DNA of 64,000 nt, taken from the NCBI RefSeq assembly GCF_018780565.1, contig NZ_JADMJN010000003.1, positions 1 to 64,000 of the forward strand, in the 5' to 3' direction. The position numbers were made by a program, and so were the translations under genes. The notes under the pieces were generated by a model. It had not been told where the DNA came from. It was given only the letters and a program-made list of their open reading frames with translations, and searched no databases. The stretch comes from Rhodoferax sp. (GTDB lineage Bacteria > Pseudomonadota > Gammaproteobacteria > Burkholderiales > Burkholderiaceae_C). Within the stretch, counting starts at the first letter, position 1, and every line of letters begins with the position of its first letter. Shown here piece after piece: positions 4,098 to 13,503 of this stretch.

Positions 4098-5717
4098 ATG
4101 AGCAGTTTGCAGGATCCGATCCGCGAGGGATTGAAACGTGGCTGGAAGGTGTTGGGCGGTGCCCATGGTGTGCTTCCCGAAAAAATCACTTGTGATGTTG
4201 CCATCATTGGCTCGGGCGCCGGGGCCGGCATCACCGCTGAACTGCTCACACGGGCCGGCTTGAAGGTTGTCATGGTCGAAGAAGGGCCGCTGAAAAGCAG
4301 CACCGATTTCAATCAGAAAGAGGCCGAAGCCTACCCCTCGCTGTACCAGGAAAGCGCCGGTCGCAAGACCGAAGACAAAGCCATCACCATCCTGCAGGGG
4401 CGATGCGTAGGCGGCTCCACCACGGTTAACTGGACCAGCTCGTTCAGGACGCCCGCCAGTACCTTGAACTACTGGCAGCAGCACTTTGGACTGAGCGACT
4501 ACACCAGCGATGCCCTTGCACCTTACTTTCAGCAAGCTGAAACACGGCTCAACATTGGCACCTGGCTGACGCCCCCGAACGAAAACAACGATCTGCTGCG
4601 CCGTGGCGCGGCCAAGCTGGGCATCCCGGCAGCAGCCATTTCGCGCAACGTCAAGGGCTGCTGGAACTTGGGTTCCTGCGGCATGGGCTGCCCGACCAAC
4701 GCCAAGCAATCGATGCTGGTCACCACCATCCCCGCCGCGCTGGATCTGGGCGCAACTTTGCTGGTGGAAACGCGGGCCCAGACTTTCGAGCTGGCCAATG
4801 GGCGCGTGCAATCAGTGAAGTGTGTGGCCGTAAAACCCAATGGGGCCTCCGTGGAGGCTGTCTCGTCAGCTACAACAATCGTAGCAGAGCACTTTGTGCT
4901 GTCAGCTGGCGCCATCAACTCGGCAGCCTTGCTGCTGCGTTCGCATGCTCCTGACCCGCATGGTCGCCTGGGCACACGTACCTTTTTGCATCCAGTGGTC
5001 ATGTCAGCGGCCATCATGGAGCAAAGGGTGCAGGCCTGGGCCGGGGCGCCGCAAACCATCTACACCGACCACTTCATGGACACCCAGCCCATTGACGGAC
5101 CGATCGGTTTCAAGCTCGAAGCGCCGCCGCTGCATCCGGTCATCTTTGCCTCCACTGTGTCGGGTTACGGGCAGGCACAGGCGGATTTGCTGGCCAAGTT
5201 TCCTCACACCCATGTGCTGCTGGCCCTGTTGCGTGACGGTTTTCACGAGCAGGCCGCTGGCGGACGAGTCAAGCTGCGCGCCGATGGCTCGGCCTTGCTG
5301 GACTACCCGCTGACCGACTTTGTCATGGAGGGCGCGCGCCGTGCCTTGCTGGCCATGATGGAAATCCAGTTTGCCGCAGGTGCCCGCCAGGTCTTGCCCC
5401 TGCATGAAATGGCACGCCCGTACACCGGCTGGACCGAGGCCAAGCAAGCTGTCGATGCGCTGCCCATGAAACCCTTGCTGACCAAGGTCGTCAGTGCGCA
5501 TGTGATGGGCGGTTGCGGCATGGCCGGCAGCGAAAAGCTTGGCGTTACACGCCCCAACGGCTTGCACTGGCAGTTGGACAACCTGTCGATTCACGACGGC
5601 TCCATTTTTCCGACCAGTATTGGCGCCAATCCGCAGCTGTCGATCTACGGCACGGTGAACCGTTTGGCGCAAGGGCTGGCCCAGCGCCTGTCGGGCAAGG
5701 CGCTCACCCTGGCCTGA
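4098..5717 (+). CDS. GMC family oxidoreductase (FAD-dependent)
   Basis: A 539-residue flavoprotein. The ADP-binding GSGAGAG motif lies about 30 residues from the chosen ATG, and GRCVGGSTTVNW, LSAGAINSAALL and the C-terminal SIFPTSIGANPQLSIYGT are characteristic GMC signatures. A cysteine-containing stretch (GCWNLGSCGMGCPTNAK) resembles the ferredoxin-like cysteine region of bacterial long-chain alcohol oxidases and sugar dehydrogenases. It oxidises an alcohol or sugar; the substrate is not predictable. The open frame extends further upstream, but the ATG at 4098 sits 19 nt after the Tat protein and leaves a normal N terminus. Its own N terminus has no signal peptide, so export would depend on the Tat partner. 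Confidence 0.88.
   Translation: MSSLQDPIREGLKRGWKVLGGAHGVLPEKITCDVAIIGSGAGAGITAELLTRAGLKVVMVEEGPLKSSTDFNQKEAEAYPSLYQESAGRKTEDKAITILQGRCVGGSTTVNWTSSFRTPASTLNYWQQHFGLSDYTSDALAPYFQQAETRLNIGTWLTPPNENNDLLRRGAAKLGIPAAAISRNVKGCWNLGSCGMGCPTNAKQSMLVTTIPAALDLGATLLVETRAQTFELANGRVQSVKCVAVKPNGASVEAVSSATTIVAEHFVLSAGAINSAALLLRSHAPDPHGRLGTRTFLHPVVMSAAIMEQRVQAWAGAPQTIYTDHFMDTQPIDGPIGFKLEAPPLHPVIFASTVSGYGQAQADLLAKFPHTHVLLALLRDGFHEQAAGGRVKLRADGSALLDYPLTDFVMEGARRALLAMMEIQFAAGARQVLPLHEMARPYTGWTEAKQAVDALPMKPLLTKVVSAHVMGGCGMAGSEKLGVTRPNGLHWQLDNLSIHDGSIFPTSIGANPQLSIYGTVNRLAQGLAQRLSGKALTLA
4869..4911 (+). repeat. Palindromic mini-element, copy inside GMC gene (weak)
   Basis: GCTAC and GTAGC arms enclose seven bases, followed by 21 nt and TGGC, the spacing seen in the clearer copies at 35219 and 58041. 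It is read in frame and codes for the stretch SATTIVAEHFVLSAG. Weak copy: the tail is also explained by normal GMC sequence. Confidence 0.4.
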
Positions 5718-8365: not shown

Positions 8366-9445
8366 TTATTGGAGGGGAGCCCATTCCGCAGCGGCTTGGG
8401 TCCACATGAAATTCAGCAAGGGCGAGGCGGCGACCGCATGGCTGCCGGCCATCAGTTCGTAGTAGCCGCTCTGGTTGTCGGCCATGGAGACCCGTGGGTC
8501 AAAGTCGATCACATGGCCCTTGGCATCGTGGAACTTGCGGCCATCAAAGCCGCGCTCGTGCAGCTTGGCGGTGGTGCAGCGTGCCACCATGAAATCGGCC
8601 AGCACCGTGCCCAGCAGGCGCCCCACCGCGCTGTCTACCGGGTAGTGCAGGCCGGCGACTGTGCGGTTGACGGCAATGCGCGCGGCCAGCCGCTCCAATT
8701 GCTCGCGGTACTTGCCGCCGTGCGGCAACAGCGATTGCAGCAGTGCGCAAGTCAGATAGGCTTCGGTGGCGTGGCCGCTGGGCCAGCTGGCGTGGCCGGG
8801 TGTGGGGATCATCGGCTGGATTTGGGGTGACAGATCGACCGGACGCTGGCAGGCAAAACCGTGCTTGAAGCGCATCTCGACGTGCGTCGCCAAGGACATG
8901 GCCAGGTCCAGCAGCTCCAGCGTGTATTTGTGGCGGTGCGCCGTCAAGCCGATGATGGAGGCCCAGAAGGCGCCCCCGCCATTGACTTGCGCCAGAATTT
9001 CAGCGCCCCGGTCCTCGCGCAGCTCGGCATAGTTGGCCACCAGGTCCAACTGCTGCTTGAAGATTTTCTCGGTGGGGCGCACCAGCCGCGCCAGCGCCAG
9101 GTCTTTGAGCGGCTTCTTGCCCAGGTCCACAAAGCCCAGTGTCATCGAGGTTTTGGCCTGGTTGACGTTGAAATGCAGGCCGGACAACAACTCCAGCTCG
9201 CACACCGCCATGCGCGGACCGACGGCCCAGTCGGCCAGGCGTTCGGCTTTGTCCAGCGGCGTGGGCAGGGTGGCGGGGAGGGTAGCGCCCTGGAAGGGGC
9301 CTACCAGGGCAGCGCGGTTTGTGGACAGGGCATGCGCTTCTACGGCCGGGTCCATGGCGTACCCGCCGCTATACCCGCCGCTATACCCGCCGCTATACCC
9401 GCCGCTATACCCACCGCTATACCCACCGCTATACCCACCGCTCAT
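8366..9445 (-). CDS. Vanadium-haloperoxidase/PAP2-like enzyme with N-terminal SGGY repeats
   Basis: A 359-residue protein with the full vanadate/phosphate-binding signature of the PAP2 and vanadium haloperoxidase superfamily: Lys194-x6-Arg201-Pro202, PSGH at 222-225, and Arg261-x5-His267-x3-Asp271. It could act as a haloperoxidase or a phosphatase; the long helical region before the signature favours the haloperoxidase group. Residues 2-29 are seven perfect SGGY repeats, which is not a signal peptide and is unusual for the family. An AAGGA ribosome site lies eight bases before the ATG. It lies between a cyclase gene (26 nt upstream) and a subtilase gene (9 nt downstream). Confidence 0.82.
   Translation of the reverse strand: MSGGYSGGYSGGYSGGYSGGYSGGYSGGYAMDPAVEAHALSTNRAALVGPFQGATLPATLPTPLDKAERLADWAVGPRMAVCELELLSGLHFNVNQAKTSMTLGFVDLGKKPLKDLALARLVRPTEKIFKQQLDLVANYAELREDRGAEILAQVNGGGAFWASIIGLTAHRHKYTLELLDLAMSLATHVEMRFKHGFACQRPVDLSPQIQPMIPTPGHASWPSGHATEAYLTCALLQSLLPHGGKYREQLERLAARIAVNRTVAGLHYPVDSAVGRLLGTVLADFMVARCTTAKLHERGFDGRKFHDAKGHVIDFDPRVSMADNQSGYYELMAGSHAVAASPLLNFMWTQAAAEWAPLQ
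9360..9443 (-). repeat. Seven 12-bp tandem repeats coding SGGY
   Basis: Seven head-to-tail 12-bp units (plus-strand TACCCGCCGCTA or TACCCACCGCTA) start every 12 bases from 9360. Four units have CGCC and the three nearest the start codon have CACC, so copies cluster by variant as expected for recent expansion. They encode residues 2-29 of the haloperoxidase-like protein and stay in frame with any copy-number change. Confidence 0.95.
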
Positions 9446-9471: not shown

Positions 9472-11319
9472 CTAATTTTCCGCGAGATTCAATGCGCGCA
9501 ACGCGATCACGCAACGTTGTCGCGTGACGCTGCTAGCGCTTCCAATCGCAAGATAGCTTGCAATTGTCAGTCCTGGTGTTTCTTGTAACAGAGAGTTCAA
9601 CGTGGTACGCGCCTCGCCTACCAATCCGGCTTCTACTTGCGCAGTGAGAAGTACTCGCAAGGTTGGAGCGTGATGTCGATTTGCTCTCAAGGATTGCCGA
9701 GCAAATGCAATTGCCTGAGCCTGTTCATTGACCGTCAATAGTGCCGCCGACAAAAGCATGTCGAAGTAGTATTTAAGTGGGTCAATAGGCGATAGTGCAT
9801 TGGCATACTCAACCTCAACAACCGCGTCTCTTGGCGCACCCCACATAGTGGAAAGAACGCTCTTGAATAACCATGCCATTGGTTCGCTTGGGTTTGAAGC
9901 CATTGATTGCTGAAGTCTTTGATTTGCTAGTTCTATGTTCCCGAGCAATTGACAATGTGCATGTCCTTCAATGGCAAGCGTTAGTGCGTTGCCCGGTTCA
10001 ATGTCGAGCGCTCGTTTAGTTTGATCAAGAGCCAACTGGGTGTCTTTTCCAGGCGCATCGCTCAACCCCCGGATGACCCGCATGATGTGCCACTTGGCTA
10101 GCCAAGCCCTCGGGGTTGCGATGCGGCCATGCCGTTCTATCAATGCTTCCAGGGTCAAGCGGCTGCGGTCGAAGTCGCGTACAGACGAACGATGCATCAT
10201 TGAAATACCGCCCAGCAGCAGAGAACTGCTGTCCAGTCGTGGCATCGGCTGCACCAGGGCTTGCTGAACCTCCGCATCGAGTAGCGCGCGCGATGTTGCT
10301 GCAGCAATCCCATTGAGTAGTTCGCTCTGGGTCTGCAATAAATCAAATGTCTCCCCTGACACACGATCAGCCCAGATGATTTCGTTGTTGCGTGTGTCCG
10401 CCAGCTCCGCCATGATCAAAATCTTGCCGCCGCTGGCGATGTAGCTGCCCGACAGCACGAACGAGGCATCCAGCCGCGACTCGACTTCTGGCATGGCGCC
10501 GGCTCGTCCCCGGAATGCGGTGGTGGACAGGCGTGAGATGACGCGAAGGTCCGGGCTACGCGAAAGTTGCCCAATGACACCATCGGCAATCAGCTCGCCA
10601 ATCACAAAATGCTCAGGCTCGTTGCTGCGCGCTTCAAACGGAATCACGGCAATGGTGGGCCGGAAGTCTGGTGCCAAAGTCTTGTTCGACGGTATCACCG
10701 GCGCATGCCCCACCGGCCCCACCCGGTAGGTGCGCACCGGTTCTTTGACGTGCTTGAGGTGGCATTCGCCCAGGTCTTCAATGTCGGCGTCCAGTGCTGC
10801 GGTCAAGCCGTCGCGCAGATCGGCGGACACCACCAGCTCGTCCGGGCCGGCGAGGGAACACAGGCGGGCGGTCAGGTTGACATCGCTGCCATAAATATCA
10901 TGCTGGTCGCTGACGAACTCCGCCACGTGCGCGCCCATGCGCAGGTGCATTTTTCGCTCGGAGGCAATGCCTTGGTTGGCCTGCTGGCTATAGCCCTGCA
11001 ACTCAAAAGCGGCTTTGGAGCAGCCCTGCGCGCTGGCAAACTCCAGCATCAGGCCGTCGCCCAGGCTTTTGACAATGCGCCCGCCATGCTGCGGCAGGAT
11101 GTGGTGCTCGGCCTGTGCCACCAGCTCGCGCCAGCGCTGCACAAAGTCGTCTTCGTCCAGCTCCATCAAGCGCACCGACTCCACCACGTCCATCACCATC
11201 AGCACTTTGGTGTGCCGGGGCTGGAAGTTGGGCAGGTCCGTCGCAGGGGGCGTCATTGCATCTTGATTGATTGGGACAACCTTCCATTCTGGCGGAAGTA
11301 TTGGCAGGCGGTGTGACAC
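9472..11319 (-). CDS. Class III adenylate/guanylate cyclase with TolB-like and TPR-type regions
   Basis: A 615-residue multidomain protein. Residues about 37-190 form a class III nucleotide cyclase domain: metal-binding Asp44 in MVMDVVES and Asp88 in KSLGDGLMLEF, and the later DVNLTARLCSLAGPDELVVS. Residues about 225-350 (AVIPFEARSNEPEHFVIGE) resemble the TolB/FlgO-like N-terminal fold often fused to cyclases. The remaining 250 residues are helical repeats of TPR type. No membrane segment is seen. The GTG at 11319 is the longest start, but no good ribosome site supports it; an ATG at 11256 is an alternative. First gene of the operon with the haloperoxidase and subtilase, suggesting cyclic-nucleotide signalling tied to those enzymes. 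Confidence 0.85.
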   Translation of the reverse strand: MSHRLPILPPEWKVVPINQDAMTPPATDLPNFQPRHTKVLMVMDVVESVRLMELDEDDFVQRWRELVAQAEHHILPQHGGRIVKSLGDGLMLEFASAQGCSKAAFELQGYSQQANQGIASERKMHLRMGAHVAEFVSDQHDIYGSDVNLTARLCSLAGPDELVVSADLRDGLTAALDADIEDLGECHLKHVKEPVRTYRVGPVGHAPVIPSNKTLAPDFRPTIAVIPFEARSNEPEHFVIGELIADGVIGQLSRSPDLRVISRLSTTAFRGRAGAMPEVESRLDASFVLSGSYIASGGKILIMAELADTRNNEIIWADRVSGETFDLLQTQSELLNGIAAATSRALLDAEVQQALVQPMPRLDSSSLLLGGISMMHRSSVRDFDRSRLTLEALIERHGRIATPRAWLAKWHIMRVIRGLSDAPGKDTQLALDQTKRALDIEPGNALTLAIEGHAHCQLLGNIELANQRLQQSMASNPSEPMAWLFKSVLSTMWGAPRDAVVEVEYANALSPIDPLKYYFDMLLSAALLTVNEQAQAIAFARQSLRANRHHAPTLRVLLTAQVEAGLVGEARTTLNSLLQETPGLTIASYLAIGSASSVTRQRCVIALRALNLAEN

Positions 11320-11399: not shown

Positions 11400-12338
11400 T
11401 CAGTTGGCGGCAGCTTTGTACAAGCTGAAATTCGCGCAGGCGCCATAAAGAACGCCCGTTGAAACCAGGCCTATGGCCACGCATTCCACCATGCTGATAC
11501 CGTCCCCGGCAATCCAGCGGCCGAACAAGAGGGCCAGGATCGGCACGCAAGCCACCACCATGCTAAAGCGCTGGCTGCCCATTCTCACAACGATAAAACC
11601 CAGCAGTGCCACAAACAAAGCGCCAGCCCCCACACCTTGATACAGCACCTGAATGATCAACTCGGGCACCGGTGTGTCCATGATTCTGCTTTGCAGGGGC
11701 GAGGCCATATACCAGGGCACCACCACCAAGCCTGAATACACCGCAACCATCGCCGCGCCTTGCATTGGCGGCACCTGATTTTTTTGAATGTACACAAGGT
11801 AGATAGCGCCAAACGCAGAAGCACAGAGAAAAAGCAGGTCGCCCAACACTGTTTGTGGCGTGAACGCTGCGCCGCTGGAATTTAGCAACAGCACGACGGC
11901 GCCCAGCGCTATCAGTGCCAAGCTGGTCAACTGAATTCGCGATGGTGGCTGCCGGTAGAACAACCACGCCCACACCGCCACCCATACCGAAATAAAGCCA
12001 GGCCCCAAGGCCGATGCGTGGGCCGCCGGCGCAAACTGCAGGCCGATAACGGTTGTCAGGTGGGTGCCCCAGCCCTGGAAAAATGCCAGAAGAAAACCCA
12101 CGACCAGCAGGCGGCGCGACATCTCGCGCAGATGCATCAAGAAATAAGGCAAAAGGATGAGCCCGCCGATGCCGCAGCGCATCAGGATCAAGTCATAAGG
12201 GGTCAGCGTCTTGGTGACCGCTAGTCGGGTCACTGCGGGCGAGCTGGCCACAAGCAGGATGAAGGCGACCAGGGCCAGGTGGGTCTGCCAGCCGCTCGTG
12301 GCTGGGTTGGGGGCGGCGGTTGAAGAGTATGTGCGCAT
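11400..12338 (-). CDS. EamA/DMT family transporter
   Basis: About 312 residues with ten predicted hydrophobic helices arranged as two EamA repeats (drug/metabolite transporter superfamily). A membrane exporter of small metabolites; substrate unknown. The frame opens at 12404, but the ATG at 12338 (MRTYSSTAAP) is preceded by AAGG at good spacing and gives a normal cytoplasmic N terminus before the first helix, so it is preferred. It is 80 nt upstream of the cyclase gene on the same strand and divergent from the repeat-protein gene at 12471. Confidence 0.85.
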   Translation of the reverse strand: MRTYSSTAAPNPATSGWQTHLALVAFILLVASSPAVTRLAVTKTLTPYDLILMRCGIGGLILLPYFLMHLREMSRRLLVVGFLLAFFQGWGTHLTTVIGLQFAPAAHASALGPGFISVWVAVWAWLFYRQPPSRIQLTSLALIALGAVVLLLNSSGAAFTPQTVLGDLLFLCASAFGAIYLVYIQKNQVPPMQGAAMVAVYSGLVVVPWYMASPLQSRIMDTPVPELIIQVLYQGVGAGALFVALLGFIVVRMGSQRFSMVVACVPILALLFGRWIAGDGISMVECVAIGLVSTGVLYGACANFSLYKAAAN

Positions 12339-12470
12339 GGTGCCTTGGCCGATGGTCAGCCCGCAGTGTACCCATGCAAGGTGCGCAAGCGCTGTGCCAG
12401 ACATCGTCTGCTATATTCAGCGCGGTTGTCCGCTCGGGCGACCATCATTCAACAATGACAGGAGCATGCA

Positions 12471-12668
12471 ATGCAAAAAGTACAGACCGGTGACAAGGCA
12501 ATTTCCCCCGCAATCGCGGCCAACACACAGACGAAGGTCGTGCAAATGGGCGCTGGCGGATTTGTGACGCCAGCCGTCAAGGCGCATGTGCAGAAGAAGG
12601 TTGTGCAAATGGGTTCTGGCTTTGTGTCGCCCACTGTCAGGGCACATCTGCAAAAGAACGCGGGTTGA
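12471..12668 (+). CDS. 65-residue protein of three tandem repeats, unknown function
   Basis: A small basic protein made almost wholly of three repeats. Copy 1 (bases 12477-12533, 19 residues) starts KVQTGDKAISP; copy 2 (12534-12596, 21 residues) starts KVVQMGAGGFVTP; copy 3 (12597-12656, 20 residues) starts KVVQMGSGFVSP. The pattern is K-V-V-Q-M-G-x-G-F-V-x-P-x-V-x-A-H-x-Q-K. A clear AGGAG ribosome site lies ahead of the ATG, so it is very likely translated. No signal peptide, cysteine or membrane segment. It is followed after 28 nt by a larger gene, probably the same transcript. It could be a precursor peptide, a small binding protein or an antigen-like repeat protein; no family is recognised. 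Confidence 0.72.
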   Translation: MQKVQTGDKAISPAIAANTQTKVVQMGAGGFVTPAVKAHVQKKVVQMGSGFVSPTVRAHLQKNAG

Positions 12669-12696
12669 TTTTGCTTTGATGGGAGGCCAATAGCCT

Positions 12697-13479
12697 ATGC
12701 AGCCGGATACACCAAGCGATGATGACGTAACGGTAACGTTTCACCGGGTCTATCCGGCCGCAATCCCCCCGATGCGGGCGGACAAATCGGCCATGGGTAT
12801 CATGCCCACCATGGCGTTTCGCCATTGTGAGCCGATGCGCATGGCGTCTTCATTTGGTTGGTACATATTCCCGCCTGAGGACATCTTTTTGAAGTGGAAC
12901 GGGGCGGACGTTTTTTTCAAGCAGGATGACGAATGGGTGCCGCTGTCCAAAGCTTACCTGCCAGGGTTTGCGGAATATTGGGACGCGAATGCGCCCGAAG
13001 AGATGCAGGGTTTGGCCCCGCCATTTCTGTCTTGCCTTCCGGTGCGGGGCATTGTGCAGATTTGGTCAGGCTTGCTTTGCGGCACGCGTCCTGGCTGGAG
13101 TGTGCTGGTGCGACCGGTCGCCAATGTCCGTGGCAGCCATCTTTATTCGTGTTCTGAAGGTTTGGTGGAGTCGGACTCTTTCCATCCATTCCCGCTATTC
13201 ACCAACATCCAGTTGATCGCCACCGATGTGCCGATCGAAATTCCAAAGGGCGTGCCCCTGTTTCAAATTCAACCCTTGATGCGCGGCACCTATGGCGATG
13301 CCGCGCACCGCTATGAGGACCGTGAAGGAATGGGTCTCCTGGCCAACGGTGAACCCGCCATGTCCGAAGCCGATTGGGCGGGCTACCGCAAGACGATTCG
13401 GGTTGAGGTGGACGACGCGCCTGCCGAGTCGGGGCAATACACGGCTGCAACCCGTAAGCGCACGAAGCACGAGGATTAA
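12697..13479 (+). CDS. Uncharacterised protein, possibly DUF6065 family
   Basis: A 260-residue soluble protein with no signal peptide. Conserved-looking stretches are FGWYIFPPEDIFLKWNG near residue 50, FTNIQLIATDVPIEIPKG and PLFQIQPLMRG. These remind me of the DUF6065 family, but this is from memory and no biochemical role is known. A GGGAGG ribosome site lies 10 bases before the ATG. It is 28 nt downstream of the three-repeat small protein and followed by a terminator, so the two form a two-gene unit. Context suggests that it acts on or with the small protein (inference). Confidence 0.65.
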   Translation: MQPDTPSDDDVTVTFHRVYPAAIPPMRADKSAMGIMPTMAFRHCEPMRMASSFGWYIFPPEDIFLKWNGADVFFKQDDEWVPLSKAYLPGFAEYWDANAPEEMQGLAPPFLSCLPVRGIVQIWSGLLCGTRPGWSVLVRPVANVRGSHLYSCSEGLVESDSFHPFPLFTNIQLIATDVPIEIPKGVPLFQIQPLMRGTYGDAAHRYEDREGMGLLANGEPAMSEADWAGYRKTIRVEVDDAPAESGQYTAATRKRTKHED

Positions 13480-13503
13480 GCGCGGGCTCGTGCCCCGCTT
13501 TTT
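13478..13503 (+). terminator. Probable Rho-independent terminator
   Basis: A GC-rich hairpin (AAGCG, one bulged C, GGG pairing with CCC and CGCTT) right at the stop of the preceding gene is followed by five T residues. It would end the two-gene unit 12471-13479. Confidence 0.55.

Follow-up and report, generated by a model that had tools for sequence, protein, structure and literature searches.

What does a small protein built almost entirely of tandem units do, and how is it connected to the larger protein encoded directly downstream? These questions are raised by a locus in the window, as the whole 64,000-nucleotide stretch of DNA that was analysed is called here. In the original prediction the two products were likened to precursor-and-processor systems. 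The coordinates, the gap between the two genes, the ribosome site and the terminator given there were all as described when the sequence was re-read. The features of the locus are as follows.

9472 to 11319, minus strand: regulator with a nucleotide-cyclase-like front, a common middle domain and TPRs (Pfam Guanylate_cyc, E 2.5e-6; TPR)
11400 to 12404, minus strand: EamA-type transporter, divergent from the pair, likely an exporter (Pfam EamA, E 4.1e-20); the true start may lie further inside
12460 to 12464, plus strand: AGGAG ribosome-binding site upstream of the small repeat gene, 6 nt from its ATG (read from the sequence)
12471 to 12668, plus strand: 65-residue tandem-repeat protein of three units, presumed precursor or ligand (ORF, self-repeat test)
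12477 to 12533, plus strand: unit 1, degenerate, KVQTGDKAISPAIAANTQT, also given as KVQTGDKAISPAIAANTQ (weak local alignment to units 2 and 3)
12534 to 12596, plus strand: unit 2, KVVQMGAGGFVTPAVKAHVQK (aligns to unit 3 with a one-residue gap)
12597 to 12656, plus strand: unit 3, KVVQMGSGFVSPTVRAHLQK (aligns to unit 2)
12697 to 13479, plus strand: 260-residue DUF6065 protein, the partner, with a predicted dUTPase-like fold (Pfam E 1.7e-9, AlphaFold2, Foldseek, VIA)
13482 to 13498, plus strand: intrinsic terminator stem-loop followed by a T-run (consensus scan)

The two ORFs are separated by 28 nt; the second is preceded by GGGAGG, and a hairpin and T-run follow its stop codon. The self-alignment score of the repeat protein was 72, compared with 19.5 +/- 4.1 (maximum 40) for 500 shuffled sequences. 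The internal repeat that had been predicted is thus far above chance, and consists of two near-identical units (2 and 3) and a weaker one. Unit 1 is weak on its own, but both the unit and its register are supported by a 15-unit homologue in Polaromonas sp. A23. No family above its curated cut-off was found for the repeat protein in the Pfam, NCBIfam, PADLOC and PHROG scans, apart from chance-like low-complexity matches. The partner, previously placed only in a poorly known family, belongs to Pfam DUF6065 (PF19541), with a whole-protein score of 38.0 bits against a gathering cut-off of 26.6. Elsewhere in the window, a 359-residue ORF (8366-9445, minus strand) begins with approximately seven SGGY repeats, followed by a phosphatase-like part; as far as was seen, it is unrelated to the pair.

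Distribution and constraint of the gene pair

The nearest relative of the window pair is that of Polaromonas sp. A23, in which the partner is 73% identical and the repeat protein has 15 units, compared with three in the window. In Rhizobium sp. WSM4643, a DUF6065 relative with 37% identity has an 83-residue repeat protein encoded 16 nt upstream, which differs in sequence and has the same build, with repeats of ...DDGKVHIANKSPAF... A profile scan of approximately 85,000 species genomes yielded 66 further DUF6065 relatives, which together with L009 and L028 gave 68 loci; these counts refer only to the DUF6065 branch selected by the scan motif G[WY][YF]xFPP. Sufficient upstream sequence was available for 66 of the 68 loci, although in some of them the array runs into masked bases, a frameshift or the end of a contig. 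A tandem-repeat ORF was present directly upstream of DUF6065 in 61 of these 66 loci. The five loci without an adjacent repeat ORF were from four Elioraea genomes and a Binatia metagenome-assembled genome, and in all four Elioraea genomes the repeat gene was located elsewhere in the genome. Repeat genes of the same unit type, apart from DUF6065, were observed in Elioraea loci L096, L100, L105, L113 and L122; in L096 (genome G938) the repeat gene adjoins the TPR regulator and not DUF6065. In the Candidatus Binatia genome (L093), no repeat gene was seen upstream of position 4992, where the upstream gene resembled, by eye, an Asp/Asn beta-hydroxylase type.

Co-occurrence was assessed in a sample of 150 genomes from the family around a Roseomonas metagenome-assembled genome. 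The repeat profile matched 31 genomes and the DUF6065 profile 51, with both present in 29 (Fisher p 6e-15, odds ratio 64, with no correction for shared ancestry). In the two genomes with only the repeat, the repeat sits at a contig end, which would cut the partner off. Many of the genomes with only DUF6065 hold a second paralogue, and most of the cases inspected had a small ORF of their own with 1 to approximately 19 units of the DAGRVRIGAGxxxLP type, which the first repeat profile had missed. Repeat homologues mostly lacking the partner would count against a dedicated pair; the co-occurrence check proposed in the original prediction gave the opposite picture, as nearly all repeat-bearing genomes also have DUF6065. 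A small peptide gene linked to a partner gene, as looked for in RiPP systems, was therefore found both in the adjacency of the two genes and in their co-occurrence. The repeat gene and the DUF6065 gene form one conserved functional unit, which is widespread in Proteobacteria.

The number of units per array ranged from 1 (for example in L187) to approximately 19 (L179), so that the variation for which a check had been suggested proved to be wide. The median was four units in 39 automatically counted arrays, a count that misses one unit in L064 and L075. Very small single-unit ORFs were observed upstream of DUF6065 in L187 (approximately 30 residues), L174 and L190. Many loci encode a short N-terminal stretch ahead of the first unit, which is absent from the window protein, and the length of the linkers between units differs among species.

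The ratio pN/pS between neighbouring units, delimited by period, was below 1 in all 26 arrays analysed, with a pooled value of 0.31. In L029, L069 and L072 the amino acids are kept although pS, at about 0.75-0.79, is close to saturation. Taken together, these values indicate that the units are translated and that selection acts on their peptide sequence. A chance repeat or a spurious ORF was ruled out by the shuffle test, the pN/pS values and the conserved layout.

Across the clade-specific unit types, a general core of V-x-h-G-x-x-(S/A)-P-x-[L/F] was recognised, where h is a hydrophobic residue. The conserved positions are hydrophobic, Gly and Pro, and no conserved Cys, Ser/Thr, Trp or Tyr was found in the unit alignment across loci. 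Positions of this kind resemble those of a binding motif rather than reactive ones, and the missing modifiable residues favour an alternative to a precursor, namely a docking array. The repeat protein would then be a multivalent scaffold, with every unit serving as a short linear motif for the binding of one DUF6065 barrel, or perhaps one trimer. Copy number would set how many partners are gathered; nothing would be modified, and the function would lie in the assembly itself, for example a body for storage, sensing or the clustering of enzymes. The unit types also follow the DUF6065 tree, as would suit such docking: with 'no-repeat' and 'unlinked' counted alongside the unit types there are 14 label classes, and these require 14 changes, the minimum plus one, against 33.8 after shuffling. 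Single-unit versions, however, make no array. A docking array is the main rival to the precursor reading, and we consider it rather unlikely.

Predicted fold of the DUF6065 partner

An AlphaFold2 model of the partner, built from 57 sequences, had a mean pLDDT of 86.7. When this model was compared with the PDB by Foldseek, the best match had an E-value of 1.5e-5 and a probability of 1.00, and among the 50 matches listed all were dUTPases or dUTPase complexes. VIA-align comparison of the model with dUTPases gave Z scores of up to 11.8 over 127 residues (rmsd 4.0). DUF6065 is thus predicted to have a dUTPase-like beta-barrel fold. Profile-profile comparison with our own dUTPase alignment was co-linear but weak (E 0.003, probability 10%). 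In this weak alignment the catalytic Asp of motif III falls on E158, which is Glu in 53 of 57 rows, the Tyr position of motif III (GxIDxDY) is mostly Trp, and the motif IV Gln aligns to Q190. The same alignment revealed neither the phosphate-binding RSG of motif II, where the aligned stretch is P-x-A-N, nor the Gly-rich C-terminal motif V, where the C-terminus is GxYxxxxRKRR-like. No recognised catalytic set was present in the DUF6065 alignment.

As the predicted fold is dUTPase-like and the motifs are not kept, DUF6065 appears to be a repurposed dUTPase-fold protein and not a dUTPase; a working dUTPase was ruled out by the loss of the catalytic and phosphate motifs. A 2-oxoglutarate or cupin-type oxygenase was likewise discarded, because the alignment has no conserved His and the fold search gave dUTPases. 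dCTP deaminases gave no match in the DUF6065 profile comparison and were absent among the 50 fold matches listed, although kinship is still possible.

Cys44, Gly54, Pro60, Asn143 and Gly155 are invariant in both the repeat-associated and the canonical DUF6065 proteins. F58-P59, Q121, W123 and R139 are invariant only in the repeat-associated branch, and Y248 is nearly so. Judged from the alignment, these branch-specific residues are candidate contacts for the repeat units, and they could form the binding surface that a docking array would need. dUTPase folds are reported to serve as protein-binding partners, for example the staphylococcal phage dUTPase with the Stl repressor, which also speaks for docking. 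The canonical DUF6065 genes sampled in other Pseudomonadota (L013-L027, L191-L198) appear solitary and lack a repeat protein, and no recurrent partner was seen in their sampled neighbourhoods. The basic function of the family may therefore be something else.

The pair from L042 was also folded as a single chain, with the two genes in frame and the stop codon replaced by Gln. No confident docking was observed in this low-confidence model, which was judged without coordinates or PAE, and the undocked units count against the docking array as a weak test. About two short strands per unit were assigned, at a repeat pLDDT of 37-60. Such strands might reflect stacking of the units into a small beta-solenoid-like body that has a role of its own, with DUF6065 as its chaperone or anchor. 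This structural reading sits poorly with the low pLDDT of the repeats, with copy numbers that fall to one unit and with linkers whose length varies among species, and we consider it very improbable.

Regulator, transporter and other neighbouring genes

Related regulators were found near 29 of the 68 loci, at differing positions and in differing orientations; where both flanks exceeded 4.5 kb, 15 of 31 loci had one. Their front domains vary: nucleotide-cyclase-like fronts occur in the window and in Polaromonas, BTAD fronts in alphaproteobacteria, and CRP plus cyclase in L061. In genomes G937, G938, G940 and G942 just one homologue of the regulator is present genome-wide at E <= 1e-10, located approximately 1.2-2 kb from the repeat gene. 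This proximity also holds in Elioraea, although the repeat gene there is away from DUF6065. An EamA or MFS transporter was present near the pair in 16 further loci, often directly beside DUF6065. The transporter and the TPR regulator, which the original prediction had left unconnected, belong to the neighbourhood. The recurring transporters are left unexplained by a docking array.

The cyclase-like or cNMP-binding domains carried by some of these regulators are consistent with a regulatory switch, as is the predicted fold of the partner. A pocket kept from a dUTPase-like ancestry would sense a nucleotide or small molecule, the repeat protein would act as inhibitor or reporter, and the neighbouring regulator and transporter would be the output. 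Phage dUTPases have been described as signalling proteins. However, the RSG and motif V are missing from DUF6065, many of the regulators have BTAD and not cyclase fronts, and a switch would have no need of one unit in as many as 19 copies. This reading is therefore improbable, although less so than the structural one.

TldD-type proteases act in some RiPP pathways. In six loci (L031, L048, L073, L074, L081, L083) the upstream flank of the pair holds a gene that looks TldD-like by eye, which probably reflects a shared chromosomal location. The TldD-like, COX15-like, lipase and SinR-like neighbours in Acetobacteraceae were all read in this way, and none of them looks like part of the system. A phage or defence origin was rejected, as there was no phage relative and no PADLOC match for the four window proteins; the phage-side traces were one viral-contig relative and one weak PHROG match with no function assigned.

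A distant DUF6065 gene was observed on pMl1 plasmids of Sinorhizobium medicae (L010:2845-6669, L011), where its sequence overlaps that of a TP-methylase gene (PF00590, E 2.4e-8) at the latter's 3' end. This distant DUF6065 and the window protein share approximately 26-33% identity, depending on how they are aligned. The neighbourhood also encodes an amidohydrolase, a class I methyltransferase and an S8 peptidase. A further product, a peptide of 104 residues, matches two RiPP-leader families, PF14407 and NF038399, in each case with a score under the curated cut-off. By sequence, this locus is probably a split-borosin-like RiPP cluster containing DUF6065, and it provides a lead that DUF6065 proteins may take part in ribosomal-peptide pathways.

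The precursor reading and known systems

The explanation that we favour, with a confidence just short of even, is that the repeat protein is a precursor made of several units, that DUF6065 binds these units and modifies or releases them, and that the transporter exports the product. The small gene would give rise to a short protein of tandem units, each unit being a substrate or core segment. The dUTPase-like beta-barrel of DUF6065 would act on these units, and the adjacent EamA or MFS transporter would export the peptide product under the control of the TPR regulator, which may govern expression of the locus. In this proposal we infer the direct binding of the units, their release and any chemical change to them, as well as the export of the product and what it does.

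The precursor reading is favoured because the genes are adjacent in 61 of 66 loci, four of the remaining five have the repeat elsewhere, and 29 of 31 repeat-bearing genomes have both. Copy numbers of 1 to approximately 19 resemble multi-core precursors, and the pN/pS values, the recurrent transporter and regulator and the S. medicae cluster point the same way. It is weakened because neither a known RiPP enzyme nor a protease or leader was seen in the window pair, because a conserved modifiable residue is missing from the unit and because DUF6065 lacks a recognised catalytic set. The tethered fold without confident docking, the canonical DUF6065 proteins without repeats, and the distance of the S. 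medicae homologue, whose peptide lies below curated cut-offs, weaken it further.

The likeness to precursor-and-processor systems was therefore only partly borne out: co-occurrence and variable repeat number agree with it, whereas the dUTPase-like partner and the lack of a conserved, commonly modified residue do not. To our knowledge, a dUTPase-like fold is not known from any precursor-processor system. The remark that no known modification enzyme is visible held in the Pfam and NCBIfam scans of the window pair, in which, as in the sampled neighbours, neither a known RiPP enzyme nor a recognition domain was found; no protease or leader was seen in the pair.

The pair was assigned to no known class, because it has no known RiPP enzyme and the dUTPase motifs are not kept. 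A literature search, most subscription papers being outside its scope, found no mention of DUF6065 and no printed KVRLGG, which leaves absence unproven; the pair looks like an apparently undescribed peptide-plus-partner system. A new class of peptide natural-product system, in which a dUTPase-fold protein lacking several of the usual dUTPase motifs chemically modifies or releases the units of a tandem-repeat precursor of highly variable length, is possible, if on the doubtful side. We know of no peptide-modifying enzyme with a dUTPase fold, and if DUF6065 modifies the units, ribosomal peptide chemistry would gain a new enzyme fold. If its role is confined to binding, the repeat protein would be a natural docking array, lengthened and shortened by evolution. 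DUF6065 now has a predicted fold, and the loci offer natural variation in copy number (1, 2, 3, 15 and about 19).

Borosins with separate methyltransferase and precursor are known (split, type IV; PMC8429565). The S. medicae DUF6065 cluster resembles them in its TP-methylase and leader-type peptide, both of which are absent from the window pair and, as far as was seen, from the other repeat loci. Canonical DUF6065 proteins belong to the same Pfam family; those sampled are solitary, whereas the repeat branch has its own invariants Q121, W123 and R139. DUF6065 is like dUTPases (PF00692) in its predicted fold, its weak co-linear profile match and the motif IV Gln at Q190, and differs in the replacement of the motif III Asp by Glu, the missing RSG and motif V and a length greater by approximately 100 residues. 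With the staphylococcal phage dUTPase and Stl the pair would share a dUTPase-fold protein as protein-binding partner; here there is no Stl-like repressor, phage or pathogenicity island, and the partner is a tandem-repeat peptide.

In multi-core RiPPs, a short gene beside a partner encodes several near-identical segments whose number varies by strain, with a transporter nearby. The window-type pair differs from these in having no recognised RiPP enzyme, leader or protease, a unit without a conserved reactive residue, and a partner of dUTPase-like predicted fold. It is like them in its short gene and partner, its variable number of near-identical segments and its nearby transporter, and may well function as multi-core ribosomal-peptide systems do.
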